DNA of 35,394 nt from a bacterium (GTDB lineage Bacteria; UBA9089; CG2-30-40-21; SBAY01). Positions 2,613 to 34,961 of the stretch are shown piece after piece (within the stretch, counting starts at the first letter, position 1; every line of letters begins with the position of its first letter). Made by a program: the position numbers and the translations under genes. Where the stretch lies: contig JBFLYA010000012.1 in NCBI GenBank assembly GCA_040757115.1, forward strand, positions 1 to 35,394, in the 5' to 3' direction. The notes below the pieces were generated by a model. That model did not search any database, was not told where the DNA came from, and was given only the letters and a program-made list of their open reading frames with translations.

Positions 2613-2707
2613 GAAGACAGAGGTCAAAAGTCAAAAAACAGATATTAAGGGAATATCTTTAAAATGTATGTGTTTAGCGTGTTCCAAAGTGCGTTGATTT
2701 GAGACTT

Positions 2708-2844
2708 ATAGTAGTTATTAACGAAAATTTCTCATAGAACAGATATAGCAACAGGGTTGATGGTTGATAGTTTATAGTTGATAGTTTCATAGACTATCAA
2801 CTATCAACAATACTAATGTGAACTTTTGGTTAATACTTACTATA
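2708..2844. repeat. Nested palindrome with heptamer core between tRNA-Trp and secE
   Basis: Outer arms TATAGTAGTTATTAACGAAAA (about 2708-2728) and an imperfect inverse at 2822-2844 enclose a core of 7-bp words (GATAGTT / TATAGTT). The core forms a perfect 9-bp hairpin, GTTGATAGT (2777-2785) with ACTATCAAC (2793-2801). The right edge is only a few bases before secE, so it may affect translation of secE or processing of the tRNA end. No gene is present in 2613-2850. Confidence 0.6.
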
Positions 2845-3623: not shown

Positions 3624-3638
3624 CAAAGGTCAGCTTTT

Positions 3639-3731
3639 TCATCCGGACTACCTCCTTAATGTTTGGGGCAATGTCTAAAAAGACAACCCTCTTCTATTAT
3701 ATCAGATATCGGGTAGTCTGGATGACTTTTT
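3639..3731 (+). terminator. Inverted repeat with T-run after nusG
   Basis: TCATCCGGACTACC (3639-3652) is inverted at 3712-3725 (GGTAGTCTGGATGA), 13 of 14 pairs, followed by CTTTTTAT. The large loop (about 59 nt) holds a small GTCT...AGAC hairpin. It can act as a terminator closing the rpmG-nusG unit, consistent with rplK being distant. Alternatively it is a repeat related to the neighbouring REP-associated transposase remnant. Confidence 0.5.
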
Positions 3732-3841
3732 ATAAATCTTTTTTAATATCTTTGAAATATAAAAGTATTATACCAGACCTCGAAAGCAGAATTAACTTGA
3801 CAAAATGAGAAAGATAAAGATTATGTTATTATAAAAGTTAT

Positions 3842-4284
3842 TATGGCAAGACCACAAGACCATGGAGAGTACAATACCAAGGTGCAATATATCATGTAAT
3901 GTCCAGAGGGGTGGCTCAACAGGAGATATTTCGTATTGAAGATGACTATCATCGATTTTTAGACTATCTTGAGAAGAGTGTGGATAAATATGGATTAGAG
4001 ATATTTGCTTTTGTGCTAATGTCGAATCATTATCATTTATTTGTGCGAACAAAGGAGGCAAATCTTTCTAATGCACTACAATGGTTGCAAACAGAAAGGG
4101 ATGTAGCCATTTATATATTATATATAGTCATACTGGATTGAGTAATAAAGAGATAGGTGAGATATTTGGAGTAAGTCCAACAGCGATAGGTAAGGCAAGT
4201 ATCCGAGTAAGAAATCAGATGAGCGACCATAAAGGATTTAAAAAGAAGGTAGAAGATATAGTTAATTCTGCTTTCGAGATCTGA
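3842..4284 (+). pseudogene. REP-associated tyrosine transposase (RAYT), decayed
   Basis: Three frames of one gene can be read. 3842 starts M-A-R-P, then a frame change leads to RPWRVQYQGAIYHVMSRGVA and a continuous stretch to A-L-Q-W-L-Q-T (about 3862-4092). This contains the HUH motif region V-L-M-S-N-H-Y-H-L-F-V of IS200/RAYT-type transposases. After a large internal deletion and another frame change comes HTGLSNKEIGEIFGVSPTAI, the C-terminal helix-turn-helix typical of longer RAYTs, ending at 4284. Full-length members are about 230-330 residues, so roughly half is missing. RAYTs are single-strand transposases associated with palindromic REP sequences; this copy cannot be active. Confidence 0.8.
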
Positions 4285-4299
4285 CCCCAATATAGTTTC

Positions 4300-4470
4300 G
4301 TGACCCCAATATGGTTTGTCCTTTGGGATAGGAGGACAGCCCTTGCCCCTGCGGTTAAAAAGGCAAAGGAACTTGAGGAAAGGGAAGAAAGGATAGAAAA
4401 GGCGCTCAAGGAATATGCGATTCAACAACCTAAATTAGCAGCAGTTTTAAGAGAAGTTGGAATTTTGTAA
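4300..4470 (+). pseudogene. Unknown C-terminal gene fragment
   Basis: An open frame ends at 4470 and encodes a charged helical tail including KKAKELEEREERIEKALKEY and A-V-L-R-E-V-G-I-L. A GTG at 4300 could start it but has no ribosome binding site. Just upstream is a 19-bp direct duplication, TGACCCCAATATAGTTT (4282-4298) and TGACCCCAATATGGTTT (4301-4317), which looks like a recombination scar next to the transposase remnant. I do not recognise the family. It may be the end of a larger gene whose front was lost. Confidence 0.35.
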
Positions 4471-4483
4471 AAACTTGACTAAA

Positions 4484-4532
4484 GATGAAACACTTATGTT
4501 CACAGCGAGTGGACATAAATGAAGAGGAAAAT
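4484..4532 (+). repeat. Covarying hairpin unit, divergent copy
   Basis: ATGTTCAC (4496-4503) pairs with GTGGACAT (4509-4516), with one G-T wobble, and is followed by a degenerate GAGGAAAAT and then TTAATGGGACGCAGATT. The same succession follows the hairpin unit at 13737-13792. The downstream stretch to about 4626 contains ACGCAGATTTTCGCAGAT words and ends with ATTTTCAGG (about 4617-4625). The region 4471-4675 holds no gene. Confidence 0.6.
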
Positions 4533-4675
4533 TAATGGGACGCAGATTTTCGCAGATAAACACAGATGAATTAGAGAATTAGATTTTTAACTTTGTGTGT
4601 CTTTGTGTAAAGAAAACTATTTTCAGGAAAAAACAATAACTTTGTTCTTTGACAATTTAATATGTTTTTTTTGTG

Positions 4676-4705
4676 TTGACAGAGGAAAGAGAGTAGTGGT
4701 ATAAT
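4676..4705 (+). promoter_or_regulatory. Sigma70-type promoter for the glycosyltransferase/secreted-protein operon
   Basis: TTGACA (4676-4681), an 18-bp spacer and TATAAT (4700-4705) give a consensus promoter 22 bp before the ATG at 4728. The three following genes are separated by 1 and 5 bases and are probably cotranscribed from here. Confidence 0.75.
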
Positions 4706-4727
4706 GGATAAGTGATGAGGTGAAGAG

Positions 4728-4937
4728 ATGGGGAAGAAAGATAGAAGACAGAAGTCAGAAGTCAGAGAACAGAAAAAGAGGAAGTGGAAGGTTCATCTTA
4801 AAATTCCAAAGTTTCTCATTCCAAAGGATGAGCCGATTGTGCCAAAGGCATTTACTCCAATAGATTATGTGGGTGGGATAGTGGTATTTTTTATCTGCGG
4901 GAGAGTATATCTATATACGATAGAGGAAATGGAATAA
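4728..4937 (+). CDS. Small single-span membrane protein, unknown
   Basis: 69 residues starting at an ATG with AGGTGAAG (4719-4726) upstream. The N-terminus D-R-R-Q-K-S-E-V-R-E-Q-K-K is encoded by the intergenic word GTCAGAA/GTCAGAG, so it is recruited repeat DNA. The middle has a basic stretch and PKDEPIVPKAFTPIDYVGG, followed by a hydrophobic segment (about residues 47-62) and a short acidic end. No family is recognised. Its stop is one base before the glycosyltransferase start at 4939, suggesting coupled translation and perhaps a helper role. The good promoter and ribosome binding site argue that it is expressed. Confidence 0.55.
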   Translation: MGKKDRRQKSEVREQKKRKWKVHLKIPKFLIPKDEPIVPKAFTPIDYVGGIVVFFICGRVYLYTIEEME

Positions 4938-4938
4938 T

Positions 4939-6813
4939 ATGGGTAAGAGGAAAAAGAAAATAAAGAAAATTAATCAAAAAACTCAAAAATCAATAATTAA
5001 AGATTTGTTAAGAAAACGATTATTTAAAAAAGAGAATTATATTATAGCAGGGATACTCATTTTTGCGTTTATTCTTCGATTAATTCACCTTTTTCAAATG
5101 CAAAGTAATTATCCCGAATTTTACTCACCTAACCCAGGAACAGATATGGGAATGTATGATAAAGCTGCTATGGAGATAGTTCATGGTAATCCAATAAAAG
5201 GTCCATTTTATTATAATCCTTTGTATTATTATTTCTTAGCCTTAAATTATTATTTATTTGGACATAACCTATTTATTATAAGATTAATCCAGGCATTATT
5301 AGGAATTATTACAGGTATATTAACATATTTTATTGCTAAAAAGATATTCAATGAAAAGGTAGCTATAATTTCTCTTTTGCTTTATGCCTTATGTGGTTAT
5401 CTTATATATTATGAAGGAGTACTCTTATCAATAAGTTTAACTACTTTCTTATGTGTAGCATCTATTTGGTTCTTTTTTCAAGCAAGGGAGAAAAAATCAA
5501 ATAAAAGATTTATCATTGGAGGTATGTTATTAGGACTGGCGACTCTTTCTCAACCTAATACTATTCTTTTTCTTCCATTTGTTCTTTTATGGATATTATT
5601 AGAGTTGAAAGAGGATGTAATAAAAAGAAGATTACAAAGATGTGCTATTGTTCTTTTAGCCTGTTTTGCAGCTATTTCTCCGATTACTATTAAAAATTAC
5701 CTTGATTCAGGAAGATTTGTTTTAATCACAACAAGTGGGTCTTTTAACTTTTGGTTAGGTAATCACGAACATTCATCAGGATGGTTTGATTTTTTTGATA
5801 GAGATTTAGAAAGACTTGAAGAAAATAAAAAGAGTGATAAGAAAATAAATGATGTTTATATAGAAGATGTGATAAGATTTATTAAAAAAGATCCACTAGA
5901 TTATCTAAAACTTTTCATAAAAAAGATACTTTTATTCTGGGGAGAATGGGATATACCTCATCAGGTACATTATGGGAAAGGTAAATTTTACTCTCCTTTA
6001 TTAAAATGCCCATTTATTCTTGATTTTGGTTTATTAGCAACATGGGGAGTTGCTGGAATATTTCTTTCTCTTAAGAGATGGTTGAAGAAAGGATTATTAC
6101 TTTATTTTTTTATTTTTGCATATAGCTTTTCAGTAGTGATTATAATGGTTAATGGAAGATATCGTCTTCCTGTGGTCCCTTTTCTTATAATCTTTGCGGG
6201 TGTTTTATTCATTTATTTATATGAGAAATTTAAAAAACGAAGATTTATCTCTCTATTCTTTTCTTTCTGGATATTAATCTTCTCAATTCTATTTGTAAAT
6301 TCTCAATTTGTTTATGCTAAAATATTTTGTATAATTAACCCTAATGGAATGTATATAGAAAGGGATAATACCCTTTTTATTAGCGATAATAGTGAAAAAT
6401 GTGCTTGGGAAGAAACAATTTCTATAAATTCACCTAATATGAAACTTAAAAAGGAATTCATTTTAATAAATGATATCTCATTTTTTAAAGAAGGGAAATT
6501 GTCCTTTGATTATATTTTTCAAGGAAATGGACATTTCATTTGTAGTATTAATGGGATAGATTCTCCACCAGCAATTTTATCATCGGATGGATTTATACAT
6601 AATATAAGATTTAAATTCCCTCCTTATTTATTAAAAAGAGGATTAAATAGTATCATTTTTAAAATTACAAATGAAGGAAAGTTAGATATACCTGTCAGTA
6701 AATATTATAATTATGAAAGATCCTATATTTATGATGGGATAAAGTGGAAAAAGATAAATGGGGAATATTTAATTCAATTAGAATTGATAAAATTTAAAAA
6801 GGAGGATTTATAA
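4939..6813 (+). CDS. PMT/ArnT-like membrane glycosyltransferase with C-terminal beta domain
   Basis: 624 residues. A lysine-rich cytoplasmic N-terminus (about 30 residues) precedes a polytopic core of roughly 11-12 hydrophobic segments to about residue 455. The first outer loop carries the PMT_2-type acidic motif in NPGTDMGMYDKAAMEIVHGN, followed by FYYNPLYYYFLALNYYLFGH, as in GT39/GT83 enzymes that move sugars from polyprenyl-phosphate carriers to lipids or proteins outside the membrane. The last 150 or so residues form a soluble beta-rich domain (KRGLNSIIFKITNEG, Y-Y-N-Y-E-R-S-Y-I-Y-D-G-I-K-W). The same architecture and many identical positions occur in the protein at 33101-34951, so the two are paralogues. 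The next gene encodes a giant secreted protein, a possible acceptor; this is inference. Confidence 0.8.
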   Translation: MGKRKKKIKKINQKTQKSIIKDLLRKRLFKKENYIIAGILIFAFILRLIHLFQMQSNYPEFYSPNPGTDMGMYDKAAMEIVHGNPIKGPFYYNPLYYYFLALNYYLFGHNLFIIRLIQALLGIITGILTYFIAKKIFNEKVAIISLLLYALCGYLIYYEGVLLSISLTTFLCVASIWFFFQAREKKSNKRFIIGGMLLGLATLSQPNTILFLPFVLLWILLELKEDVIKRRLQRCAIVLLACFAAISPITIKNYLDSGRFVLITTSGSFNFWLGNHEHSSGWFDFFDRDLERLEENKKSDKKINDVYIEDVIRFIKKDPLDYLKLFIKKILLFWGEWDIPHQVHYGKGKFYSPLLKCPFILDFGLLATWGVAGIFLSLKRWLKKGLLLYFFIFAYSFSVVIIMVNGRYRLPVVPFLIIFAGVLFIYLYEKFKKRRFISLFFSFWILIFSILFVNSQFVYAKIFCIINPNGMYIERDNTLFISDNSEKCAWEETISINSPNMKLKKEFILINDISFFKEGKLSFDYIFQGNGHFICSINGIDSPPAILSSDGFIHNIRFKFPPYLLKRGLNSIIFKITNEGKLDIPVSKYYNYERSYIYDGIKWKKINGEYLIQLELIKFKKEDL

Positions 6814-6818
6814 AGAAA

Positions 6819-9800
6819 ATGTATAAAAGAAAAATTTTATTGATAGGGATATTAATATTTATAGGAATAGGAAATAATATAGAAATTGCGAAAGCAGAGG
6901 TAGTAGAAGTAAGTGGAAATGTATATGGAACATGGACTAGTGGCAACATCTATGTTGCCACTGATACAATCAGTGTAGCGAGTAATACCACTTTAACTAT
7001 TCAACCTAATGTAATAGTGAAGATTACTCCGGGTAAAAGATTAAATGTGTATGGTAAGTTGATTGCGGAAGGTATAGAATCAGGAACTATCACTTTTACT
7101 TCTTTAAAGGATGATATTGGAGGAGATACAAATGGAGATGGAACATCTACCTCTCCTACTGCTGGAGATTGGAGTGGATGCATTTTTGATGGTGAGGGAA
7201 GTATAGGTAGCAAACTAGATCACTGTGTAGTAAGGTATACTTACAAATATGGAATTTCCATTATTTCATCTTCTATTTCTATTAATAATTCTGATATTTG
7301 TGAAGTTTATGCTACCTGGGAAGGAGGTGAATATGTAGAAGTTCCTTCTTATGGAATTTATGTTTCATCAGGTACCTTAACCATTGTCAACTCCAATATT
7401 TTTAATATTTCTTCTTATGCACTGGGAGAGCGTTTTGGACAACCCCTTGGATATGGAATTTATATTTCTGGTGGTATTGTATATATTAGTAATTGTAATA
7501 TTTTAAAGATTAGAAGTAGTAATGATTTGTATGGAGTATCAAAAGCCTATGGAATTTATGGGTCATCTACCATATCTTATATCAATAACTCTAATTTTTC
7601 TCAAATTGAAGGAGAAACCAATATTGCCTCATCAGAAGCCTATGGAATTTACTTTTCTAACTCATCTGTTTTTATTAATGATGAAAACTACATTTCACAA
7701 GTAACAAGTAAAGGTAGTTCTTATGGAATATATGTTTGTAATTCATCATCTCCATTCACCATTTTAAACTCTAAGATTTTTAAAATCATAGGTAATGGCT
7801 ATGCTTACGGAATTTATCTTTCCAATATATTATCTGAAGGTATCATTCGTGGTATTAATATATTCGAAGTTAAGGGAAGAAATAATGGATATGGTCTCTA
7901 TCTGCTCTCTGGACAATTGTCAATTATGGATAATGAGATTTATGATATTAAAGGAGAGTGTGTTGGATATTATGGTTTAGGTTATGGATATGGTATTTAC
8001 ATAGTTTCTGGACAAGTATCAATTATGATTAATAACATTTATGATATTAAAGGAATTGCTAATTTTTCATGGAATGAATTTGGATATGGTATTTATCTAT
8101 CCCAAACACAATCATCAATATTAGGTAATAACATTTATGACATAGGGAGTGGAGGTACTACCTATTACTTATGGGCAGATGGTACACAGACAGCAGAATA
8201 TAATTGGTGGGGTAGTACCTTTCCAATTCCTTTTAACTTCTCTAACAATATTGATTATGACCCTTGGCTGAAAGGAACATATACAGGATACGCACTAATT
8301 ACTATTTTACCTACTTATGGAACGGTGGGAAACTTGGTATCTATAAGAGGTATTGGTTACAATCCAACAGAGCAAATAAAAATCGATTTTGGGACATCAT
8401 ACAATTATACCGAAGTATCAACAAACGCCGATGGTATGTTTTCTACTTCCTTCATTGTAAATACGCAACCTTATGGCCCTACTTCAATTGTAGCTACTGG
8501 GTTAAGTTCTAATAAAACTGCTTCGAATTACTTTCGTATCCTACCTCATATTTTATTTGTATCACCCAGTAGCGGTACTATTGGAAGTTTTGTTACCATT
8601 GAAGGTAATGGATTTGGTAAGATGGATACTATACGGGTTGATTTCGGAACAACTATATCTATCTGTAATATAATGTCAAATACCTATGGGACATTTATTG
8701 CTACCTTTACCGTAGATACTCAAGCCTATGGAACCATTCCTATTGGCTGTTATGGGATGACATCAGGTGCCTATGACTATGAATACTTCTTTATCAGAGG
8801 GAATATTGTCTGGATAAGTCCAACGCAGGGAACTGTTGGTTCGGCTGTGACTATAATGGGCAACGGCTTTGGAGCAACTGAACTAATCGGCATAGATTTT
8901 GGCACCACACTAAACATTAACCAGTGCACCACGACTACAGACGGGAAATTTACTACCCTATTTACGATAGATACCCAACCTTTCGGCATTACTACTATTA
9001 CAGTTAGAGGGATGCAGACTGGTTTGGTGGATAAGGCTGGATTTACTATCCTGCCAAATATTGCCCTTATCAGCCCTATTTCTGGGACTATCGGTTCTAT
9101 TGTCACCGTAATGGGTAATGGATTTGGTGCTACGGAATTGATCAGGATTGAATTTGGTAATATTCGTACTATTACCACTGTTTATACTTATGCTACTGGG
9201 GAATTTCAGACAGTATTTACAGTAGATTCTCAGCCGATTGGGACAACGACTATCATTGCTCATGGTTTGATGACTAATGCCTATGCTCTGGCACAGTTCA
9301 TTATTCTTCCATTAACTACTTTAAAGATTACACCTGCCTTACAAAATGTAGCTGTTAATTCAACATTTACCTGCCAGGTGGAGATAGAGGATGTGGAAAG
9401 ACTAAGAGGTGTGGAATTACATCTTAGTTTTAATCCCAATATCCTTGAAGTAAAAGAGATTGGGACAGGTACATTTCCACCAGATGGTTGGGTAATGCAG
9501 AATAAGTATGATAATATCAAAGGAGAGATAGATTATACCATTGGGTTGATTTCTGGCTCTGCTACTGGTTCAGGGGACATTTGTAAAATAAAATTTAAAG
9601 CAATATCAGGTGGTACATCAACTGTAATATTTGATTTTACTAGACCCAACCGTATCACAAAACTATTAGATATAGGAAACAACGGAATTCCATTTAAGAA
9701 AGAAGAGACTATGTATCAGGTAATCACTGGTATCGAAATCAAGCCAAAAGATAAAGAGATTCGTGCAGATGAAACTATTGATTATACCTGCCTTGCATCA

Positions 9801-11588
9801 TGTGGAAGTTTAGAACTTGATGTTACTGGCTCTACTACCTTTACTTCAAATGGTGGTGGCTCTTTTACACTTAATACCTTCCATGCAAAATATATGAATA
9901 CATATACAATTCAAGGGGAATATCTTGGATTTATTGGAACTACATCAGTGATTATCCTACCTGGCACTCCAACAACTTTAGTTTATGTATCAGGAAATGG
10001 TCAGGTTAATACCTGTACCTTTACCTTAAAAGACCCATTTATAGTTAAGGTAGTGGATAAATATGAAAACCCTTGCCAGGATGTAGAGGTAAAGTGGGAA
10101 ATTATCTCTATCCCTTCTGGTGCAACTTTATATTCTATCTCCCCAACTAAAACCACAACCAATGTTCAAGGTACAGCGTCATCTTTCCTTACCTTAGGTA
10201 CAGAACCTCCAGGTACATATAATGTACATGCTATTTCAACTGGATTAAGTGGGTCTCCCTGTACTTTTACTGCACATTCATTAAGGCGATTTGGTAATAT
10301 AGCTGGTTTTTGCATGTTGGATTTGGGGACAGTTACATTAGGTACATGTTCAGATATTCAGGTAAGGATTGTAGAGCTTGGTACAACTACAATGACTAAT
10401 AATAATTCTTATTTCATCTTTAAGAATATACCAGTAGGAACTTATACCCTTACTTTTGATACATGGGGTGCATCGTCAGCAACTAATACCAATATCTGTA
10501 TTAGCCGAGCACAATTTGAGGATACTACATACATTGGTACTATTACACTATTAGCAGGAGATGTAAATAATGATGGCAAAGTAAATATTGGAGATTGGCC
10601 TGGATTTGTAGACAGTTTTGGTGATTATGAAGGTAATCCTGAAGGTAATTGGGAACAAACCAAAGAAGGAAATTTTAATCATGATAAGGTTGTTGATATT
10701 TGTGATTTTGGTATCTTTGCAGATAATTTTGGTAAACAGCAGCAAAAAGGTAAGACTAAAGAATTAACTACAATGCCTGCTCGTACTAAAAAGACCTCTG
10801 GTAGGATAGAGTTGTCCTTTGACCTTCAGACACTTGCAGGGGTAGATATTAATGAACTGCGTGTTGGAAATATTATCTATCTTAAGATATATGTTCGTGA
10901 TGCAAAAGACTACCTTGGTGGTGAAATACACTTGTCATTTAATCCAAAGGTATTACAGGTAATAGATGCGGATAACGGCAAAGATGGTATCCAGATTCAA
11001 CCGGGGGATTTCCCACGGGGTTCAGTGAAACATCAGGCTGATATTCTGAAGAATGAAGTAGATAATTCATCAGGTAAGATTGATTATGCTGTCGTAGTCT
11101 GGGAGCCAGAGAGAGATGATGAAGGATTATTAGCTACCGTGCCATTCAGGGTCATTTCTTGTGATGCCTATTCTAAAGTTAATTTTGAGTTTGATGATGA
11201 AGAAAACCGGGAAACAAAGTTTATCGAAAGAATTGGTCAGGAACAACCTGTTGACCAGCAACCTGATGTATTACCTGATGAAATAACTATCAAAGTGCCA
11301 GCGGTATATAATAATTTAGAGAAGGCACTGGTCTATCCCAATCCTTCTTATAACGGGAAAGAGGTAACCTTTACGCAGATTACCACTGATAAACAGGTTA
11401 CTTTAAGAATATATAACTTAGCCGGTGAATTAGTCATTGAGAAACAAAAAGATAACATCTATGATAGCCAGATTAAATGGAATTTAAAGAATAAAGATAA
11501 CGAAGATGTTGCCTCAGGTATTTACATCTATTTCTTAAAGGATGAACTTGGCTCGGTTAAGAAAGGTAAGATTGGGGTGATAAAGTAA
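6819..11588 (+). CDS. Giant secreted multidomain protein: beta-helix, IPT repeats, cohesins, dockerin, FlgD/T9SS-like tail
   Basis: 1589 residues with a signal peptide (MYKRKILLIGILIFIGIG, cleavage likely after AKA near residue 26). About residues 60-470 form a right-handed beta-helix with some ten coils of 28-33 residues, each opening with Y-G-I-Y-x-S. Four IPT/TIG-like immunoglobulin repeats begin near 491, 578, 662 and 747 (ISPTQGTVGSAVTIMGNGFG). A cohesin-like module spans about 835-945 (GVELHLSFNPNILEVKEIG). A Big-type region covers about 1050-1150 and a carboxypeptidase-regulatory-like fold about 1156-1240. A dockerin-like pair of calcium loops lies at about 1245-1306 (GDVNNDGKVNIGDWPGFVDS). 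A second cohesin-like module covers about 1328-1467. The C-terminus (1501-1589) has ALVYPNPSYNG and GIYIYF..KKGKIGVIK, a FlgD-like domain related to type IX sorting tails. It is probably a surface-anchored adhesin or glycan-binding protein. Confidence 0.85.
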   Translation: MYKRKILLIGILIFIGIGNNIEIAKAEVVEVSGNVYGTWTSGNIYVATDTISVASNTTLTIQPNVIVKITPGKRLNVYGKLIAEGIESGTITFTSLKDDIGGDTNGDGTSTSPTAGDWSGCIFDGEGSIGSKLDHCVVRYTYKYGISIISSSISINNSDICEVYATWEGGEYVEVPSYGIYVSSGTLTIVNSNIFNISSYALGERFGQPLGYGIYISGGIVYISNCNILKIRSSNDLYGVSKAYGIYGSSTISYINNSNFSQIEGETNIASSEAYGIYFSNSSVFINDENYISQVTSKGSSYGIYVCNSSSPFTILNSKIFKIIGNGYAYGIYLSNILSEGIIRGINIFEVKGRNNGYGLYLLSGQLSIMDNEIYDIKGECVGYYGLGYGYGIYIVSGQVSIMINNIYDIKGIANFSWNEFGYGIYLSQTQSSILGNNIYDIGSGGTTYYLWADGTQTAEYNWWGSTFPIPFNFSNNIDYDPWLKGTYTGYALITILPTYGTVGNLVSIRGIGYNPTEQIKIDFGTSYNYTEVSTNADGMFSTSFIVNTQPYGPTSIVATGLSSNKTASNYFRILPHILFVSPSSGTIGSFVTIEGNGFGKMDTIRVDFGTTISICNIMSNTYGTFIATFTVDTQAYGTIPIGCYGMTSGAYDYEYFFIRGNIVWISPTQGTVGSAVTIMGNGFGATELIGIDFGTTLNINQCTTTTDGKFTTLFTIDTQPFGITTITVRGMQTGLVDKAGFTILPNIALISPISGTIGSIVTVMGNGFGATELIRIEFGNIRTITTVYTYATGEFQTVFTVDSQPIGTTTIIAHGLMTNAYALAQFIILPLTTLKITPALQNVAVNSTFTCQVEIEDVERLRGVELHLSFNPNILEVKEIGTGTFPPDGWVMQNKYDNIKGEIDYTIGLISGSATGSGDICKIKFKAISGGTSTVIFDFTRPNRITKLLDIGNNGIPFKKEETMYQVITGIEIKPKDKEIRADETIDYTCLASCGSLELDVTGSTTFTSNGGGSFTLNTFHAKYMNTYTIQGEYLGFIGTTSVIILPGTPTTLVYVSGNGQVNTCTFTLKDPFIVKVVDKYENPCQDVEVKWEIISIPSGATLYSISPTKTTTNVQGTASSFLTLGTEPPGTYNVHAISTGLSGSPCTFTAHSLRRFGNIAGFCMLDLGTVTLGTCSDIQVRIVELGTTTMTNNNSYFIFKNIPVGTYTLTFDTWGASSATNTNICISRAQFEDTTYIGTITLLAGDVNNDGKVNIGDWPGFVDSFGDYEGNPEGNWEQTKEGNFNHDKVVDICDFGIFADNFGKQQQKGKTKELTTMPARTKKTSGRIELSFDLQTLAGVDINELRVGNIIYLKIYVRDAKDYLGGEIHLSFNPKVLQVIDADNGKDGIQIQPGDFPRGSVKHQADILKNEVDNSSGKIDYAVVVWEPERDDEGLLATVPFRVISCDAYSKVNFEFDDEENRETKFIERIGQEQPVDQQPDVLPDEITIKVPAVYNNLEKALVYPNPSYNGKEVTFTQITTDKQVTLRIYNLAGELVIEKQKDNIYDSQIKWNLKNKDNEDVASGIYIYFLKDELGSVKKGKIGVIK

Positions 11589-11654
11589 AGCAGAGAGTAG
11601 AAAGTAGAGAGTAGAGAAAAAACTATCTTGCTACTCGATATTTATTCAATTTCC

Positions 11655-11769
11655 GTAACCGTTCAGGTGATAATTTACCGCAGAGACGCAAGAGGACACA
11701 CCCCTAACCCCTCTCAAGAGGTGTGTGTTTTTCTCTGCAAACTCTTTTGTCTGTGCGGTGAACGGTTAC
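11655..11769. repeat. Nested palindromic element with GTAACCGTTCAG ends, before rplK
   Basis: GTAACCGTTCA (11656-11666 region) is inverted as TGAACGGTTAC (11759-11769). Inside are CCGCAGAGACGCAAGAG-type words opposed to CTCTGCAAACTCTTTTGTC and G-T-G-C-G-G, and a core hairpin with arms ACACACC and GGTGTGTGT followed by five T. The core is terminator-like in the plus direction, though it could simply be a repeat. The outer ends are identical to those at 315-558, but the interior is wholly different. It separates the secreted-protein operon from rplK and fills most of 11589-11820. Heptamer AGTAGAG words lie at 11591-11615. Confidence 0.75.
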
Positions 11770-13604: not shown

Positions 13605-13676
13605 TTTCACGCCAAGCACGCAAAGGACGCAAAGGAAAATAAGGGAAAAAATTACCTTTGCGTCCTTTGCGTGAAA
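13605..13676. repeat. Palindrome of 9-bp words after rplJ
   Basis: ACGCAAAGGACGCAAAGG (13618-13635) is perfectly inverted at 13655-13672 (18 bp), extended outward by TTTCACGC and GCGTGAAA. The 9-bp word ACGCAAAGG is repeated within each arm. Just upstream (13553-13580) are heptamer words of the GACCAAA/GACTATA type. No T-run follows, so it is not a classical terminator, but the hairpin would be very stable in RNA. Confidence 0.7.
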
Positions 13677-13736
13677 AAACTGTTTTCAGGGGAATGTAGT
13701 TTTGTAAATCTGTGTAATCTGCGAAATCTGCGGATT

Positions 13737-14124
13737 ATTTTCAGGAGAAACCGGGCATGTCCACGGTGGTGGACACAAACGACGATGAAAATTAATGGGA
13801 CGCAGATTTACAGGATTTACAAGATTTTAAAGAAAAACCACTAAGGCACTATAAAAACATCAAGAAACTCTAAGGAAATAACTATAGAAATACAATATAA
13901 AAAATTAATTTTAATCCTGTTCATCTGCGAAAATCTGCGTCCTAATTTACATTTTCAGGGGAAACGGACATGAGCCAGGGCTCACAAAGGGCAATGAAAA
14001 TGGGAGAAAGACAACCCCCTAACCCCCTTTATTAAGGGGGAATATCTGTTCTACACCAGAGGATACGAGTCTGTGGATACTATACTAATTCGCTAATCTC
14101 TAATTCACTAATTCGCTATTTTCA
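13737..14124 (+). repeat. Chain of covarying hairpin units and TGAAAAT/ATTTTCA palindromes
   Basis: Hairpin unit one (13737-13792) runs from ATTTTCAGGAGAAAC through stem TGTCCAC/GTGGACA to TGAAAAT. Between its TGAAAAT and the next ATTTTCA (13951-13957) is a palindrome with arms GGACGCAGATTT and AAATCTGCGTCC. Unit two (13951-14001) has stem TGAGCC/GGCTCA. A second spacer (14002-14117) holds a CCCCCTAACCCCC / TTAAGGGGG repeat and CTAATTC words and ends in ATTTTCA (14118-14124). The half-unit that follows, CAGGGGAAACAGGG, directly precedes the ATG at 14137. Each complete unit contains an SD-like AGGRG, an ATG and a short frame (12 codons in unit one, 21 in unit two). Confidence 0.75.
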
Positions 14125-14136
14125 GGGGAAACAGGG

Positions 14137-14514: not shown

Positions 14515-14588
14515 AAAGTAATAATTGGGCTATGGTAACTAATTACTATTCACCAATTACCAGTTACCAAAATATAGGAGGTGAAAAA

Positions 14589-15125: not shown

Positions 15126-18100
15126 ATGCTTAAGCAAGAACGGGTTTCTTTTGGAAAAATAAAAGAGGTCATAGATGTCCCATCATTAATTGCTATTCAA
15201 AAGGATTCTTTTGAATGGTTTTTGCAAAAGGATGTGCCTCCAGAGCAAAGGAAACCTCAGGGATTACAAAAGGTATTTTTAGAGACTTTTCCCATTATAG
15301 ATTTTAATGAAAAAGTAGTCTTAGAATTCGTTGACTATAGTCTTGGTGAACCAAAATATGCGGAGGAAGAATGTCGAGATAGAGATATAACTTATGGAGT
15401 TCCATTACGAGTCCGATTACGATTAATCTGTCGTGAGACAGGTGTCATTCAGGAACAAGAAATCTTTATGCGAGATATTCCTTTAATGACCGAACGGGGA
15501 ACATTTATTATTAATGGGGCTGAACGCGTCATTGTCAGCCAGATGCACCGTTCTCCAGGGGTTTATTTTGACTATGACCCATCAACTCGATTATACTCAT
15601 CCAGGGTTATCCCTTATCGAGGGGCATGGTTAGAATTTGAATTAGACACTAATAATATTCTCTTTGCAAGATTAGGACGCAAAAGAAAAATCATTGCAAC
15701 TACCTTTATTCGAGCCATTGGTTATTCTACTATCGAAGATATACTAAATCTTTTTTTCCCGGATCAAATTCGAATAGATAAAGTGAACGAAAATTTAGTT
15801 GGACTTCGATTAGCCCAGCAAGTAATAAATAAAGAAGAGAACGAAGTATATCGTCCAGGGATGAAGATTACCAATACGCTCTTGAATATTTTAAAGAAAC
15901 AACGGATTAAAAAGATAAAGATATTAGATGTGGAGAGTTCATTTATATTAAATACATTAGAACGAGATGATACCAATTCTACGGATGAAGCCCTGATTAA
16001 GATTCATAACCTGATGCGTATCGGGGAACCACCTAATATTGAAAATGCTCAACAGACCTTTTACCGATACTTCTTTGATCCACTTCGCTATGATTTATCC
16101 GAGATAGGTCGGTATAAAATTAATCAAAAATTGGGACTGTCAATTTCAGAAGAAGTCACAACATTGACTAAAGAAGATATAGTAGAGACGGTCAAATATA
16201 TGATTAAATTGATTAAAAAACAAGGGGAAATAGACGATATTGACCATCTTGGGAATCGGCGTGTCAGGTCTGTTGGAGAATTACTACAAAATCAATTACG
16301 GATAGGGATGTCAAGATTAGAACGAAGTATCCGTGAACGGATGGCAATCCAGGATATAATGACAATGAAACCACATACCGTCATTAATATCAAACCAGTT
16401 ACCGCCGCAATCAATGAATTTTTTGGCTCAAGCCAGCTCTCTCAATTTATGGACCAAACAAATCCCTTAGCCGAATTAACTCATAAACGAAGATTATCTG
16501 CTTTAGGTCAGGGTGGGTTATCTAAAGAAAGAGCAGGGTTTGAGGTTCGTGATGTCCATTACTCTCACTACGGGAGAATATGTCCAATCGAAACGCCTGA
16601 AGGACCTAATATTGGACTAATTGTATCTCTATGCGTTTATGGAAGAGTAAATAGATTAGGTTTTATTGAAACTCCCTATCGGAAAGTCTTAGACAGCAAA
16701 GTTACTAATCAAATTGAATATCTAACTGCGGATAAAGAACAAAAACATAATATTGCTCAGGCAAGTAGTAAAATAGGGAAAAATGGTGAGTTTATAGAGG
16801 AGGCAGTTGCGGCAAGGTTTCGAGACGATTTTCCATTAGTTACTCATGATAAAGTGGATTATATGGATGCCTCTTTAAAACAGATTATTAGTGTTGGAAC
16901 AGCATTAATTCCTTTCCTGGAACATGATGATGCCAATCGTGCTTTGATGGGGTCTAATATGCAGCGCCAGGCAGTCCCATTACTCGTTAGTGAATCTCCT
17001 TTAGTTGGCACAGGCATAGAACAATATATTGCCAGAGATTCCGGCATCGTGATTATCGCCCCTGTTGATGGCATAATAACTCGGGCGACGGCAAGTGAGA
17101 TTGTATTAAAAGGTAAGGATAAGAAAGAATATTCTTATAACTTATTGAATTTTAAAAGGTCTAATCAGGCAACCTGTATTCATCAAAAACCTATTGTTAA
17201 AAAGGGAGAACAAATCTCAAAAGGTCAACCTTTAACTGAAGGCACGGCGACTGACAATGGCGAACTGGCATTAGGAAGAAATGTCCTGGTGGCATTTATG
17301 CCCTGGGAAGGATATAATTTTGAAGATGCCATCCCTATTTCCGAAAGGTTAGTTAAAGAAGATATTTTTACTTCAATTCATATTGAAAGATATGAAATAG
17401 AGGCAAGGGATACTCAACTTGGCCCAGAGCAAATTACCGCCGATATTCCTAATCTGGGCGCTGAAGCACTGAAAAATCTTGATGACCGCGGCATTATTAG
17501 AATTGGTGCCATGGTTAAATCAGGCGATATATTAGTTGGTAAGGTTACTCCAAAAGGGGAGACAGAACTTTCTCCAGAATATAAATTACTTCATTCTATA
17601 TTTGGTGAAAAGGTCCGCGAAGTTCGGGATACCTCACTTCATCATCCTTATGGAAGTGAGGGAATAGTCCTTGATGTTAAGTATTTCGCCACCAGGCAGG
17701 GCGATGACCTTCCACCTGGCGTGGAAGAATTAGTTAAAGTCTATGTGGCAACTAAACGAAAGATTATGGTTGGTGATAAAGTTGCCGGCAGACATGGAAA
17801 TAAAGGTGTTATCGCTAAAATCTTACCTGAAGCAGATATGCCTTTTCTTGAAGATGGCACACCAGTAGATATGGTTTTGAATCCTTTGTCAGTTCCTTCA
17901 AGAATGAATATCGGCCAGATATTAGAAACTCATCTTGGCTGGGCCGCTCATAAATTAGGAATTAAAACTACCTCCCCGGTATTTGATGGAGCAACTGAAG
18001 AAGAAATCAAAGACTATCTTAAAAAAGCAAACTTACCTGAAGATGGCAAGGCTTACCTTTATGATGGAAAAACAGGAAAAAGATTTAAGGATAAAATTAC

Positions 18101-18548
18101 GGTTGGCTATATTTACATGATGAAATTAATTCATTTAGTAGAGGATAAAATTCATGCTCGCTCTATTGGTCCTTATTCATTAGTCACACAACAACCACTG
18201 GGTGGTAAGGCTCAATTTGGTGGACAACGACTTGGTGAAATGGAGGTCTGGGCATTAGAGGCTTATGGTGCCTCGCATCTGCTCCAGGAATTTTTAACTG
18301 TAAAATCAGATGATATTATTGGTCGGGCAAAGGTATATGAAGCAATTGTTAAAGGCGAAAATGCCGCAGGACCCGGCGTGCCTGAATCTTTTAATGTCCT
18401 ATTCCACGAACTTCAAGGATTAGCCTTAGATGTTAAGGTCTTAGATGAAAAAGGGAAACCTATCGATGTTAAAAAACTCAACGAAGGCCGACGCACACCA
18501 CCAGTCACTATGAAATCTCAAGAACATTTGATAAAACCTATGTTTTAA
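15126..18548 (+). CDS. rpoB: DNA-directed RNA polymerase subunit beta
   Basis: 1140 residues with AGAGGTGAG upstream of the ATG. The start [13 protein letters not shown] is followed by the fork-loop/rifampicin pocket [20 protein letters not shown] and [10 protein letters not shown], in which the positions equivalent to E. coli Q513, D516, H526, R529 and S531 are wild type. Other conserved blocks are [59 protein letters not shown] and [20 protein letters not shown]. The size is that of a beta subunit without large lineage insertions. It forms the catalytic core with RpoC. Confidence 0.98.
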
Positions 18549-18616
18549 ATTGGTAATGGGTAACGGTTGAATGGTAGATGATAACTGGTAACCATTTAAC
18601 CAATTACTATTCACCA

Positions 18617-18990
18617 TAGGGTTCTGCAAAATAGGATTTGGGGGAGACAATAAATAAATATTAAATATCAAATATTAAATATCAAAATGCAAAATTACAA
18701 ATCAAATTTCAAATTGGTAATATCTTTGCTTCAAGTATTTTAACGCTGAAAGGAAAGAGATAATTTTACTGAACTGTGGCAAAGATAGTTGATAGTTTAT
18801 AGTTGATAGTTTATAGTTGATAGTAGATAGTTGAAGGACTATAGACTATAAACTATAAACCATAAACTATAAACTATACACTATAAACTATAAACGAGTT
18901 TTGCATTTTGCTCTTTGGAGGAAATTGATAAAAATAGAGGTTTTAAATACCCGCTTAAAAACTACAGTTTCCTAGTTTTGCAGAACCCTA
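18617..18990. repeat. Large nested palindromic element between rpoB and rpoC
   Basis: TAGGGTTCTGCAAAA (18617-18631) is inverted exactly at 18976-18990. Inside are AAATATT/AAATATC heptamers (18655-18685), ATAGTTG/ATAGTTT heptamers (18787-18830) and their inverse ACTATAA heptamers (18840-18895), which can pair as a long AT-rich hairpin. The outer flanks (18555-18616) carry GGTAACT/ACCAATT words that also pair with each other. No gene lies in 18549-19020. The element sits inside the usually tight rpoB-rpoC junction, so any transcript joining the two genes must read through it. Confidence 0.75.
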
Positions 18991-19020
18991 ACCATTCACC
19001 AAAAAGAGGAGGGATTTATC

Positions 19021-22000
19021 GTGAATAAAGAAGTAATGCAAGAACCAAAACAAACTTTTGAGTCTCTGTTTTCAACAATTGATATGACTAACTTTGCCGC
19101 TATTAGTATAGGACTTGCCTCACCAGAAATAATTAAAAGTTGGTCTTATGATAAGGTAAAGAAACCCGAAACAATAAATTATAGAACCTTTAGACCAGAA
19201 CGAGATGGCCTATTCTGTGAGCGGATATTTGGTCCAAATAAAGACTTTGAATGCTTCTGCGGTAAGTATAAAAGTATGCGGTATAAAGGGGTTATTTGTG
19301 ATAGATGTGGTGTAGAAGTAACATATTCTGAGGTTCGAAGACAACGAATGGGACATATCGAATTAGTTACCCCGGTATCTCATATCTGGTATTTTAAGCG
19401 AGTCCCATCTCCAATGGCAGTTGTATTGGATATTACTGTTAGAGACCTTGAACGAGTCCTGTATTACGAGGGATATATTGTGCTTGACCCGGGTAATGAT
19501 GTACCTCTTAAAAAGAAAGATGTTATTAATGAAGACGAATATAGAACCTTCAAAGAGAAATATGGCGGGAATTTTGAAGTAGGTATGGGGGCGGAGGCAA
19601 TTAAAAAATTGTTGAAAGAGATTAATCTTAAAGAAGAAGTAGAAAACCTGCGATTAGAAATGGAAGGAGACTACTCTTATCAAAAACGCCGCAAAATCGT
19701 CCGACGACTTGAAATATTAGAATCTTTCTTGCGAAGTGGAAATAAACCTGAATGGATGATTTTAGATATTATCCCGGTTATCCCACCTGAATTACGACCT
19801 ATGGTACAATTAGATGGTGGTCGATTCGCTACATCTGATTTAAATGACCTGTATCGTCGGGTAATAAATCGCAACAACCGATTAGAACGACTCATCGCCT
19901 TAAAAGCTCCAGAGATAATTATTCGCAATGAAAAAAGAATGATGCAGGAATCGGTTGATGCCTTATTTGATAATGGCAGAAGAGGCAGACCTGTAGCCGG
20001 CACTGGAAATAGACCACTAAAATCTTTATCAGATATGCTCAAAGGTAAACAGGGTAGATTCCGTCAAAATCTATTAGGAAAACGAGTAGATTATTCAGGT
20101 CGCTCGGTCATTGTCGTTGACCCAACATTTAAACTATTTCAATGTGGCTTACCTAAAAGAATGGCTTTAGAATTGTTTAAACCTTTTATTATGCGGAAAT
20201 TAGTCGCAGATAATTTAGCCCATAATATTAAAAGTGCTAAACGCATGATAGAACGAGAAAATCCTGAAGTCTGGGATGTTTTAGAAGAAGTTATCTCACA
20301 ACATCCGGTCCTTCTAAATCGTGCCCCAACTTTGCACCGTGCGGGAATCCAGGCGTTTATACCTGTCTTAATCGAAGGAGATGCAATTAAAATCCATCCT
20401 TTAGTTTGTCCAGCATTTAATGCTGATTTCGATGGAGACCAGATGGCTGTCCATGTTCCTTTATCAATTGAATCTCAAATAGAAAGCCAGATATTAATGC
20501 TTTCCGCTTATAACTTATTATCCCCGGCTAACGGAAGACCTTTAGTTGCACCTACTCAAGATATAGTCCTGGGATTGTGTTATCTAACTAAAGAAAGACC
20601 AGATGATTTAGGACAGGATAAAAAACTCACTAATATTCACGAGGCTTTAATGGCTTATGAAGAAGGAATAATAAGTTTAAATGCCAGGATTTGGATTTGT
20701 ATTAATGGTAAAAACTTACAGACGACTATTGGACGCATCATATTCAATGAATGCTTACCTGAAGAACTTCAATTTATTAATGAAAAGGTGGATAAGAAAA
20801 AGATAGGTCAAATAGTCGCTGAGGCATACCGTAAATGTGGAATGAGCAAAACCGTTGATTTACTGGATAAGGTGAAACAACTTGGATTCAAATACGCCAC
20901 GGAGTATGGAGTATCTATTGGCATAGATGATATTAAAGTCCCACCTCAAAAACCAGAGTTATTAAAACAAAGTTATAAAGAGATAGAAAAGATTTCACAA
21001 CAATATCATCAAGGAATTATTACGGATGAAGAAAGATATAATAAAATAGTGGATTTATGGACATATATCGGTGATGAAATATCTAAGGTAATGTTTGAGG
21101 GAATGGGCAATGATAAAAATGGGTTTAATCCTATTTATATGATGGTTGACTCTGGGGCAAGAGGCAGTAAACAGCAAGTTAGACAATTAGCCGGAATGAG
21201 AGGACTTATGGCTAAACCCTCCGGAGAAATCATAGAATTACCTATTATTGCTAATTTTAGAGAGGGACTTACTGTCTTAGAATACTTCATTTCAACTCAC
21301 GGCGCCAGAAAAGGTTTGGCTGATACCGCCTTAAAAACCGCTGATGCTGGTTATTTAACGCGTCGATTAGTTGATGTTTCTCAAGATGTTATTATTACTG
21401 CTGATGATTGTGGCACGATTAATGGGATGATAGTTGAGGCAATAAAAGAAGGTGATGAAGTTATCGAACCATTAGGTGACCGTATCCTCGGCAGAGTCTC
21501 TTTGGATGATGTCGTGAACCCGATGACAGGTGAAGTTATTATCAAGGCTAATGAGGAGATAAATGAAGAAAATGCTCAGGCTATTGAAGATGTAGAAATT
21601 GACCGCATCAGAATTCGCACCGTTCTTACCTGTGAGACACAAAGAGGGGTATGTGCTAAATGTTATGGCCGAAATTTAGCTACCGGGAAATTAATAGATA
21701 TAGGCGAACCGGTGGGAATTGTTGCCGCACAATCTGTCGGAGAACCAGGAACACAATTGACAATGAGAACCTTCCATATCGGTGGAACCGCATATCGACA
21801 GGTAGAAGAAAGAGAAATTAGATTGCCTTATGAAGTTGAAATCGTCGAACTACCGAAAAGATTGATATATTTAGAAGATGGAAGTATGGTTGCGGCCAGA
21901 GCAGGCGAACTCGTGCTACGAAAGGTGCTAAAAGAATATAAATTATCTCCAACTACAAAATTTACTGTTTTTGATGGTTTGTGGGTAAATGCCGGAGATA

Positions 22001-23247
22001 AAATAGCTCAAGTTGAAGAAAATGAAATAATCACAGAGATGGCGGGAATAGTTCGGATAGAACCTGAAAAAAGGATTTTGATTGAGGCTAAAGACCGTAA
22101 TATACCGATTAAAACAGGTGGAAAATTATTTGTTAAAACAGGGGATATTGTTCCGGCTAACAAGTTAATTGCTGAATTTGACCCATATCATGAACCAATA
22201 TTAACTGAAGTAGAAGGAACAGTGCAGTTTAATGATATTATTAAAGAAAGAACGCTCCGCGAAGAACTTGATGAAAATACAGGTTTGTTTAGAAGGGTAA
22301 TTATCGAAGACCGTGAAGGAACACTCCAACCTCGAATATGTATTCTCCGTGAAAATCAACCAACTATCAACTATTTTATTCCCAATGGCGCCAGAATAGC
22401 GGTAAATGATGGAGATAAAATTACTGCAGGGATGGTTATCGCTAAATTCCCACAAGAATTAATTAGAACTAAAGACATTACGGGTGGGTTGCCACGAGTC
22501 GCAGAGTTATTTGAGGCTCGAAGACCAAAAGAACCAGCATTAGTTACGGAAATTGATGGTGTGGTAAAATTTAAAGGGCTTAAAGAAAATAAACGAATTA
22601 TTGTTATTGAGAATGAGTCAACCGGGGAAACAAAAGAATACGAAGTCTCACTGGGTAAACATTTGAAGGTTCATGAATATGATGTCGTCTCAGCTGGAGA
22701 CCAATTAACCGAAGGACCAACAGACCCCCATGACATATTGAAAATAAAGGGTGAACGGAAATTACAAGAATACTTAGTTAACGAAATTCAAGAAGTCTAT
22801 CGCCTACAAGGGGTAAATATTAACGATAAACATATTGAGGTGATTATCCGCCAGATGCTGCGTAAATTAGAAGTAACAGATGTAGGTGATACAACATTTT
22901 TATTAGGTGAGCAAGTAGATAAATTCAAATTTGCTCAAATAAATGAAACAATACTCGCTAAAGGGAAAAAGCCAGCACAGGCGAGACCTATTTTACTCGG
23001 TATCACTAAAGCCTCTTTATCTACGGATAGTTTTATCTCTGCCGCATCCTTCCAGGAAACAACAAAAGTTCTCACCGAATCGGCTATTCAGGGTAGAATA
23101 GACCACTTACGGGGATTAAAGGAAAATGTAGTCATCGGACGACTTATCCCCGCAGGCACAGGAGTCCCTAAATATCACAAGATAGAAGTTGCTGTCCCTG
23201 CCCCAGTTCAAGAAGAAGAAATGGGGAACTATTCAGCCACTGATTAA
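19021..23247 (+). CDS. rpoC: DNA-directed RNA polymerase subunit beta'
   Basis: 1408 residues from a GTG with GGAGGGA upstream. The N-terminal zinc ribbon is present (C-F-C-G-K-Y-K near residue 79, then V-I-C-D-R-C-G-V-E). The catalytic metal-binding motif is in [20 protein letters not shown]. The bridge helix/trigger loop regions include [20 protein letters not shown] and [19 protein letters not shown], and the second zinc site is [11 protein letters not shown]. The last residues G-N-Y-S-A-T-D are encoded by the start of a 9-bp word repeat (GATTAACACG / GATTAGCACG), so the natural C-terminus was probably altered by repeat insertion. All catalytic parts are intact. Confidence 0.98.
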
Positions 23248-23884
23248 CACGGATTAGCACGGATAAATACAGAGGTCAGAGGAGAGATGAGAAAGGGGGA
23301 AACGGAGAAGGAAAGGAGACACGAGGCACTATAGCAGTTATTAGTCAAAACTTTACTCAGAGTGGATAAGTAAAAAAAATCCCAAATCCCAAGCACCAAA
23401 TCTCAAATAAACACCAAATTCCGCATACCAAAAAGCGAATTATATCAATTCTATAAAGTTTTTGCCTCTTTGTCAACACGAATGCACACGAATAAGAAGC
23501 AAATATTCCCCCTTAATAAAGGGGGTTAGGGGGTTGTTGACCTATAGGCGTTAAGATATAAGGCTTATTAAAGAGGTAGAAATTAACTAAAATTGATATT
23601 AGAGATTAGTGAATTAGAGATTAGATTTTACTAATTCGCTAATTCGCTTAATTCACTAATTCACTAAATGGAATTTGGAATTTGTGATTTGGAATTTCAT
23701 AGCCATATCTATGTCAAATTTCGATTAATAAGTGCTATATATGAAATTGGCAAATATCAAGGTTGGTCTATTGATAAATTTCAATGTGGAAAGATTGAAA
23801 AAAGGCATAAAGAGATTTGTTCTGTCCAATCTTCGTGTCCTTCGTGCTCTTCGTGGTGAATAGTTACGTTTAAGACAAAAATGA
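23248..23884. repeat. Gene-free region of word repeats after rpoC
   Basis: No convincing gene is present. AAATCCC/AAATCCC and ACCAAATTCC words (23378-23423) are inverted at 23665-23700 (GGAATTT heptamers). Within that pair lie CACGAATGCACACGAATAAG (near 23480), a CCCCCTTAATAAAGGGGG repeat with GGGGGTTGT (23509-23538) and CTAATTC/GATTAGA words (23595-23665). Past the pair, 23700-23820 is less repetitive and could be a gene remnant on the plus strand. It is followed by CACGAAG-type 9-bp words and GTGAATAGTTACG, a possible degenerate copy of the GTAACCGTTCAG end. rpoC and the minus-strand glycosyltransferases converge here. Confidence 0.6.
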
Positions 23885-27630: not shown

Positions 27631-27659
27631 TTGACAAAATCTCTTATCTTGTGTATACT
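27631..27659 (+). promoter_or_regulatory. Sigma70-type promoter placing the start site at the ATG
   Basis: TTGACA (27631-27636), a 17-bp spacer and TATACT (27654-27659). The start of transcription would fall at about 27665-27667, on the ATG at 27666. The mRNA would then be leaderless; no Shine-Dalgarno is present. The rest of 27487-27630 is word-like AT-rich DNA. Confidence 0.6.
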
Positions 27660-27665
27660 CTTTGT

Positions 27666-28589
27666 ATGAAAAGGAAAGAATGGCATCCTTATTTTTCCAG
27701 TGTTTTGAAGCATCTACTTGAACCTAAAGGGTTTAAGGTTGAAACCCAGGTTGAGGTTGGAGAAATGCCATTGAAAATAGATGTAGTGGTGATTAAAAAA
27801 GGTAAGGATGCAGATGTTAAGTCCTTACCTCTGGTCTTTCAATCCTTTACTGATTACAATATTATCGAGTATAAATCACCTAAAGACAGGTTCAGACGAG
27901 ATGATTTTGATAGATTATTTGCCTATGTGCTTTTATTTAAGATTAAAGAGGGGATACAGTGGCGCAGGCAAATAAATGTCTATGCCCTTATATCAGGAGG
28001 CATAAAAGGGATAGAAGATTACATTCGCAGGAATGGACATGAGCTTGTACGGATAAAGGAAGGGTTTTACTTTGCTGATTTTGGGTTTAATTTTTATTTG
28101 ATACAGTTGGATAAGTTAGAGGCATCTCCTGAAAACTATAAATTGCTTCTTTTCACCTCTGGGGAGAAGGTGAAAGAGTTAGTGAAGGGGATTTGTGAGA
28201 GGGGTAAGGAAATATTAGAGGTAGATTTAATAGAGTTAATCGAGACTGGATTATATTTACATCCTGAGGAATTCAGGGAGGAGGTGAAATTGATGCCGCA
28301 GACATTAGCCGATAGACCAGATATAATAGGTGAGTTAGCAGATATAGTAGGGGTGGATATATTTGTGCAAGGAATAGGAAAAGAGAAAGTGATTCGTAGC
28401 CTTGGTGAGGAGGATGTAATTCGTAGCCTTGGCGAAGAGAAAGTGATTCGTAGCCTTGGCGAAGAGAAAGTGATTCGTAGCCTTGGCGAAGAGAAGATAA
28501 TTCGTAGCCTTGGCGAAGAGAAGATACAAAAGAATCTTATAAAACTCCTGGGCAAGGAAAAGATAAAAAAGATGTTAGAGGAAAACTAA
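27666..28589 (+). CDS. PD-(D/E)XK nuclease-like protein with tandem 9-residue repeats
   Basis: 307 residues from ATG 27666; a GTG at 27651 in the same frame overlaps the -10 box and is not credible. The N-terminal part has a nuclease-like pattern: K-I-D-V-V-V-I-K-K followed by N-I-I-E-Y-K-S-P-K-D and a basic R-F-R-R-D-D-F-D-R, resembling the D...ExK core of PD-(D/E)XK families such as Rpn/PDDEXK transposase-like proteins. It is not recognised more closely. Residues 242-286 are five tandem copies of VIRSLGEEK encoded by a 27-bp minisatellite, followed by I-Q-K-N-L-I-K-L-L-G-K-E-K. A helical C-terminal tail of repeating E/K motifs is common in such proteins. It stands alone, facing the minus-strand operons. 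Confidence 0.6.
   Translation: MKRKEWHPYFSSVLKHLLEPKGFKVETQVEVGEMPLKIDVVVIKKGKDADVKSLPLVFQSFTDYNIIEYKSPKDRFRRDDFDRLFAYVLLFKIKEGIQWRRQINVYALISGGIKGIEDYIRRNGHELVRIKEGFYFADFGFNFYLIQLDKLEASPENYKLLLFTSGEKVKELVKGICERGKEILEVDLIELIETGLYLHPEEFREEVKLMPQTLADRPDIIGELADIVGVDIFVQGIGKEKVIRSLGEEDVIRSLGEEKVIRSLGEEKVIRSLGEEKIIRSLGEEKIQKNLIKLLGKEKIKKMLEEN
28133..28160 (+). repeat. 28-bp direct repeat, copy within the nuclease-like gene
   Basis: This coding segment (starting AAACTATAAATTGCTTC) is matched at 28591-28618 with a single mismatch (27 of 28). The second copy begins two bases after the stop codon region, 458 bp further on. It suggests a past tandem duplication of the gene end followed by deletion, or slippage involving the minisatellite. 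Confidence 0.7.
28389..28523 (+). repeat. In-frame 27-bp minisatellite, five copies
   Basis: Five head-to-tail units of 27 bp, core GATTCGTAGCCTTGGCGAAG, encode V/I-I-R-S-L-G-E-E-K/D. Units three and four are identical; the others differ by a few bases, mostly at the ends. Being a multiple of three, copy number can vary without frameshift, so the protein length may be polymorphic between strains. Confidence 0.9.
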
Positions 28590-34951: not shown

Positions 34952-34961
34952 ACCATTCTCC

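Follow-up and report, generated by a model that had tools for sequence, protein, structure and literature searches.

The spacer between rpoB and rpoC in the window studied here (the whole 35,394-nt stretch of contig JBFLYA010000012.1) contains, at positions 18655-18895, DNA composed of repeated short words. This raises the question of what such DNA is, and how it comes to lie between two essential genes. The original prediction had read it as intergenic DNA written in tandem 7- and 9-bp words. Comparison of the genome of the window (G000, a 4.3-Mb metagenome-assembled genome of 462 contigs) with that of a sister (G001) leads to a different view. The interval is very probably internal to a non-autonomous mobile element, here termed F1, that entered the rpoB-rpoC spacer and is not present there in the sister.

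The heptamers themselves are confirmed. Tandem Repeats Finder (TRF) detects three runs of 7-bp units in the interval (Table 1), and the identity at a lag of 7 is 0.624, a value reached by none of 2000 dinucleotide shuffles. By the same comparison there is no excess at lags 5, 6 or 8 to 12, and the 9-bp periodicity claimed for this interval is therefore not found there.

An inverted repeat, GGTTCTGCAAAA, lies on both sides of the interval. It has 100 exact occurrences in G000 and none in the control, while the longer end TTTTGCAGAACYCT occurs 129 times in G000 (control 0), and only 12 times in G001. F1 has thus either spread within G000 or degenerated in G001. Copies of F1 were defined by paired inverted ends of 20 bp. 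They are mostly about 250-490 bp in length with target site duplications (TSDs) of about 10 bp, and many of them are known solely as pattern matches. F1 is missing from the rpoB-rpoC spacer of G001, where RpoB is 100% and the flanks are about 99% identical, and a long GGTAAYT heptamer hairpin stands there. This absence rests better on the alignment of the spacer, since the call made from joined flanks involves one flank plus a variable array. F1 is therefore short and multicopy, with terminal inverted repeats (TIRs), TSDs and recent mobility revealed by empty sites, all features of a miniature inverted-repeat transposable element (MITE). Its facing arrays are inverted arms with internal tandem repeats, as in fold-back elements, and are predicted to fold strongly (z = −10.4 for the array pair as DNA, and z = −8.6 for the whole element as RNA).

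Table 1. Features of the rpoB-rpoC spacer and of related repeats elsewhere in the window
Feature	Position	Strand	Evidence or remark
rpoB, upstream neighbour	15126-18548	+	Pfam Rpb2 domains
Degenerate GGTAAYT/RTTACCA heptamer hairpin, probable F1 landing site	18550-18616	+	Long GGTAAYT hairpin array, no F1, in G001
Left target duplication ACTATTCACCA, the last hairpin copy	18606-18616	+	
F1, MITE-like element, 372 bp, TIRs AGGGTTCTGCAAAATAGGAT / TCCTAGTTTTGCAGAACCCT	18618-18989	+	Paired ends with TSD
AAATATT/AAATATC heptamer run, F1 left backbone	18655-18686	+	TRF period 7/14
F1 left arm, (GATAGTT)n heptamer array	18784-18834	+	TRF
F1 right arm, (ACTATAA)n heptamer array facing left arm	18838-18895	+	TRF
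Right target duplication ACCATTCACCA, 10/11 identical to left	18991-19001	+	
rpoC Shine-Dalgarno sequence GAGGAGGG	19006-19013	+	GGAG starts 18 nt past F1 right end
rpoC, downstream neighbour, GTG start at 19021	19021-23247	+	Pfam Rpb1 domains
GGTAAYT hairpin upstream of rplL Shine-Dalgarno sequence, short form	14533-14569	+	G001 allele longer, many more heptamer units
F3 element after rpoC, TATAGC..GCTATA ends, TA target; AAATCCC, AATTAG and GGAATTT arrays	23330-23739	+	
F3-like TA-ended element, facing GTTGATA/ACTATCA arrays	2707-2844	+	Sequence differs at corresponding G001 place
F2-like ends GTAACCGTTCAG / CTGAACGGTTAC, CACAGAG-word arms	316-557	+	No clear TSD; outside TSD-filtered set
Facing ACGCAAAGG nonamer arrays, 19-bp stem	13617-13673	+	RNA fold z = −7.4

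The lengths of the arms were compared in 17 copies of F1. The left arm is 3 modulo 7 in length in 15 of the 15 copies where it consists of array only (24-80 nt); in the remaining two the left arm is of another kind. Right-arm length is 0 modulo 7 in all 17 (7-63 nt). The arms thus vary by whole 7-bp units, and each does so independently. Growth of the two arms coupled through the hairpin was considered and rejected, the correlation of their lengths being rho = 0.04 for F1 and 0.12 for GGTAAYT hairpins. Correction of one arm by the other, i.e. gene conversion in the hairpin, was likewise discarded, as the likeness between arms is 0.596 within a copy and 0.623 between copies. Across all inverted pairs of arrays arm lengths do correlate (rho = 0.45), a value that copies of one element could yield. 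One F1 copy (L142:10859-11143) has no ACTATAA arms, and the array is therefore not needed for the existence of the element.

The right end of F1 has a fixed place and orientation. It is followed by a Shine-Dalgarno sequence and open reading frame (ORF) at 13-17 nt in 11 of 16 oriented copies (binomial 4e-19), compared with none of 16 for the left end, 1.0% of random intergenic points and 7 of 240 ends of another family, F2. A count over the whole genome gives 34 F1 ends with a GGAG 9-20 nt beyond them; in 30 of these the distance is 15-19 nt, and the control has none. The docking was noticed in the same data in which it was tested, with Shine-Dalgarno sequences identified by regular expression and ORFs by a rough caller. 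The whole-genome count, made after the idea, comes closest to an independent test, although it includes copies already seen. Because the right ends dock in this way the flanks of F1 copies look alike. A conserved GGAGGAAATTGATAAAAATAG... stretch in F1 right ends (e.g. 18918-18972) resembles a very short open frame with its ribosome-binding site. A role as intrinsic terminators was rejected, as none was found at the rpoB-rpoC site and the arrays show no preference for convergent spacers. Promoter-like hits at the site are consensus matches only.

Arrays of GGTAAYT behave similarly. Of 99 such arrays, 33 end near a Shine-Dalgarno sequence, mostly 4-5 nt from it, and all 33 have RTTACCA toward the gene (33:0); the docking rate is 3% for unclassified words and 19% for AGTAGAG-type words. 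The distance between word and GGAG has maxima at 7 and 14, and is flat for the reverse-word control. Many of the GGTAAYT arrays form part of a dispersed leader, F7 (TAGGGCTTCACGAAATTAAAAGTAAGTAATCGG... followed by the words). Its lengths differ mostly in steps of 7, and there is one likely case of its presence and absence (L170). It is quite possible, and we propose it tentatively, that F1, and with it probably the GGTAAYT hairpin of F7, home one-way to a fixed distance upstream of Shine-Dalgarno sequences, such that heptamer hairpins serve as interchangeable, length-variable 5' leaders for many genes, rpoC included. Insertion directed to the translation-initiation region would give the fixed place, though selection might do so instead. 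In a related genus other words occupy the same dock. In L021 (4035-4075 and 566-625) the words TATAAGTCC and a GTCAGACT-type hairpin immediately precede the ribosome-binding sites of rpoC and rpoB.

Inverted pairing of arrays is confirmed. The original prediction had noted the pairing of words as palindromes as something less familiar, and it is the right thing to have noticed. Similar neighboring arrays are inverted rather than direct in a ratio of 66:7 in G000 and 67:6 in G001 (133:13 over the two genomes), against 5.6:5.4 and 5.0:4.6 for random pairs. The ratio is 34:9 once copies are merged into distinct pairs. The same lean is seen in small samples, in relatives and at the rpoB loci of other phyla (6:0, 5:0, 3:1 and 14:1). 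Of 96 inverted pairs assigned to no family 79 have flanking inverted repeats, compared with 32 in the control, which suggests, without proving, that there are further element families.

Inverted arms made of other word arrays are found in at least three further families with inverted ends, F2, F3 and F5. The exact ends of F2 (GTAACCGTTCAG-type) occur 605 times in G000 and once in the control, and 102 of 576 candidate pairs have an exact 8-bp TSD (null about 12, at the looser match of 6/8). Behind the shared ends there are 30 different interiors, and most of those shown have their own tandem words as facing arms. The 8-bp TSD is that expected of a MITE derived from IS66, whose ends the GTAA.. 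end of F2 presumably resembles; the matches to the IS66 transposase domain PF03050 in G000 are mostly fragments or contain stops. F3 and F5 have TA-type ends. Between G000 and G001 there are 23 polymorphic insertions with clean empty sites, comprising 19 F2, two F1, one F3 and one F5. Much of the word-written intergenic DNA appears to be a mosaic in which hairpin elements from several families lie inside or next to one another. An F2-type element is nested within the F1 copy at L142 9067-9536. No coding capacity was found in the elements looked at.

The periodicity of the genome was examined in a sample of 773 kb of G000, of which 124 kb is intergenic by a simple ORF mask. Autocorrelation of the intergenic DNA has a single sharp peak at lag 7 (0.316, z = 47; shuffled 0.276), with harmonics at 14 (0.305) and 21 (0.300). 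The coding DNA of the sample has no lag-7 peak, and exhibits a 3-base rhythm only. TRF finds 465 intergenic arrays, compared with 14 in shuffled sequence, with 124 of period 7, 48 of period 14, 85 of period 8, 49 of period 9 and 39 of period 10. The arrays occupy 13-17% of intergenic bases in the window and about 13% in the sample, so tandem words do not make up most of the non-coding DNA as had been thought. The lag-7 peak is shared by G001. Smaller samples show it at the level of family and order and in one phylum relative, but hardly in another phylum relative (G010). Individual words are patchy. The idea that they might be universal was set aside, as a 20-mer of ACTATAA is present in 6 of 242 genomes and an 18-mer of ACGCAAAGG in 4 of 242. 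Sporadic occurrences of both words were seen in other families and phyla (L252, L253, L256, L257, L262, L265 and L268).

Several other explanations were weighed. The original prediction had proposed two separate copying mechanisms with fixed periods of 7 and 9. Heptamer and nonamer words both exist, and between the sister genomes indels one unit long, of 7 bp and of 9 bp, are observed side by side; among intergenic indels of more than 6 bp those of 7, 14 and 21 bp are foremost. Yet the autocorrelation offered as a check, which should have given peaks at 7 and 9 only, places lag 8 (0.302) above lag 9 (0.290), with lag 10 (0.289) about equal to the latter. Nothing sets 9 above 8 and 10, and the F2 family alone contains 8-, 9- and 10-bp words. 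Two mechanisms are therefore very improbable. Since the periods grade off from 7 to 10, the 7- and 9-bp indels coexist and F2 mixes its words, a single slippage process acting on different units explains all the periods. The arrays would then change length by replication slippage. It could also be supposed that such slippage arrays are free-standing and unrelated to mobile elements, like the short tandemly repeated repetitive (STRR) sequences of filamentous cyanobacteria. An excess of heptamers is common in bacterial genomes and is ascribed to slippage (an earlier survey, cited in PMC4692102 and PMC4679880), the lag-7 peak extends to family, order and some phylum relatives, and F1, F2, F3 and F5 as called contain only about one-fifth of the intergenic arrays, about 78% lying outside them. 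For the interval itself this explanation is refuted by its position within TIRs and TSDs, and F1 is absent from this place in the sister genome; moreover, slippage alone does not produce inverted pairing. We consider it unlikely overall. The analogy with STRR sequences that had been drawn holds for the 7-bp tandem unit in intergenic DNA, but not for the arrangement, as the arrays here form inverted pairs of arms inside elements bounded by TIRs and TSDs. The best 80 matches to RpoB include no cyanobacterium.

The main alternative for the docking is that F1 and GGTAAYT hairpins insert widely, and persist near ribosome-binding sites because a leader hairpin regulates or protects the mRNA. The strict orientation (11:0 by end for F1, and 33:0 for GGTAAYT), the narrow spacing to the Shine-Dalgarno sequence and the strong predicted folding are what this would lead one to expect, and MacGregor 2015 suggests translational regulation for the start-proximal TAACTGA repeats of Beggiatoaceae (PMC4679880). 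Against this, the docked copies precede many different genes, and the arms are freely variable in length and unmatched to each other, unlike a constrained RNA. The density of arrays is alike in tandem, convergent and divergent spacers, and so narrow a spacing need not arise from selection alone. Persistence by selection thus seems possible but rather doubtful. An artefact of assembly, with collapsed or chimeric repeats, is barely credible. Both genomes are metagenome assemblies broken into hundreds of contigs, with several F1 ends close to a contig terminus, but rpoB-F1-rpoC is internal to a 35-kb contig, the TSDs match on both sides of the elements and the empty sites are clean.

Some observations weigh against F1 as a mobile, homing element. 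The fragmentation of both assemblies is one, and the many arrays outside called elements are another; these may be diverged copies, uncalled families or truly free arrays. An autonomous partner with F1 ends was not found in the sequence examined, and mobilization by a transposase acting in trans on the ends is thus a supposition. Neither long TIR pairs nor the position of PF01609 revealed an F1 transposase, the PF01609 matches not being beside the listed F1 ends. No clear target duplication was seen for F7. GGTAAYT words occur in 8 of 17 F1 flanks (background 1.8%), and part of the docking of F1 could therefore reflect the targeting of arrays already docked; several docked F1 copies lie in sequence without a GGTAAYT word.

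A bias toward heptamers, inverted arrays and start-proximal heptamers are each already known elsewhere. The preference of bacterial tandem repeats for 7 nt is a known but unexplained bias, as cited in PMC4692102 and PMC4679880. The GGGAATC and GGGGA(C/T)T heptamers of Xanthomonas and Nostoc are intergenic, with 70-75 convergent inverted pairs in Xanthomonas, and they vary in repeat length between relatives and are prone to form G-quadruplexes; docking to Shine-Dalgarno sequences, found here, does not appear in the available part of that report (PMC4692102). The TAACTGA repeats of marine Beggiatoaceae are also heptamers in one orientation close upstream of start codons, but mostly have no ribosome-binding site and are not inverted pairs (PMC4679880). 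By contrast the word here is RTTACCA, many of the arrays are paired as hairpins, and the Shine-Dalgarno sequence is at a fixed spacing. BrickBuilt of Porphyromonas gingivalis is likewise a bacterial MITE with a tandem-repeat array, but it has a 23-bp unit, 19 copies and irregular target duplications, with one array between leader and tail and no facing arms (PMC4596501). The eukaryotic fold-back transposons Galileo and Tetris (PMC3573991, PMC4079207) share inverted repeats with internal repetition, whereas the repeat arms here are enclosed by TIRs that are short and separate from them, and there are several unrelated end families. In Geobacter metallireducens the paired tandem-repeat sites and heptanucleotide elements are short, multicopy and partly paired on opposite strands; they were read as putative sites for global regulators, not mobile elements (PMC2700814). 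F1 joins three phenomena usually reported apart, i.e. the heptamer bias, inverted pairs of arrays and heptamers at gene starts. Heptamers as the variable hairpin arms of a mobile element provide a concrete route for their spread and length variation in this lineage. If insertion is indeed directed to ribosome-binding sites, this would be a choice of target that was not found described in the literature searched, and mobile leader hairpins would be a testable source of regulatory variation.

Some other features of the window may be recorded. The only known RNA family in it is a tRNA. A Y1 transposase fragment (Pfam Y1_Tnp; by eye of the type associated with repetitive extragenic palindromic sequences) lies at 3899-4141 (+) in the region 3830-4300, and the TTTTCAGG..GGACATG-like repeat units of that region recur at 13683-14126 and 34960-35214. 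A palindromic unit, CCCCCTAACCCCCTTTATTAAGGGGG, is present three times, in both orientations (14015-14040, 23508-23533 and 35126-35151). A 27-bp tandem repeat of 5.3 copies at 28381-28522 lies inside the ORF 27651-28589. Lastly, nusG and rplK are about 8 kb apart (3624-11724), separated by a gene for a PMT-type glycosyltransferase and one for a protein of 1589 aa that carries a Por secretion tail.
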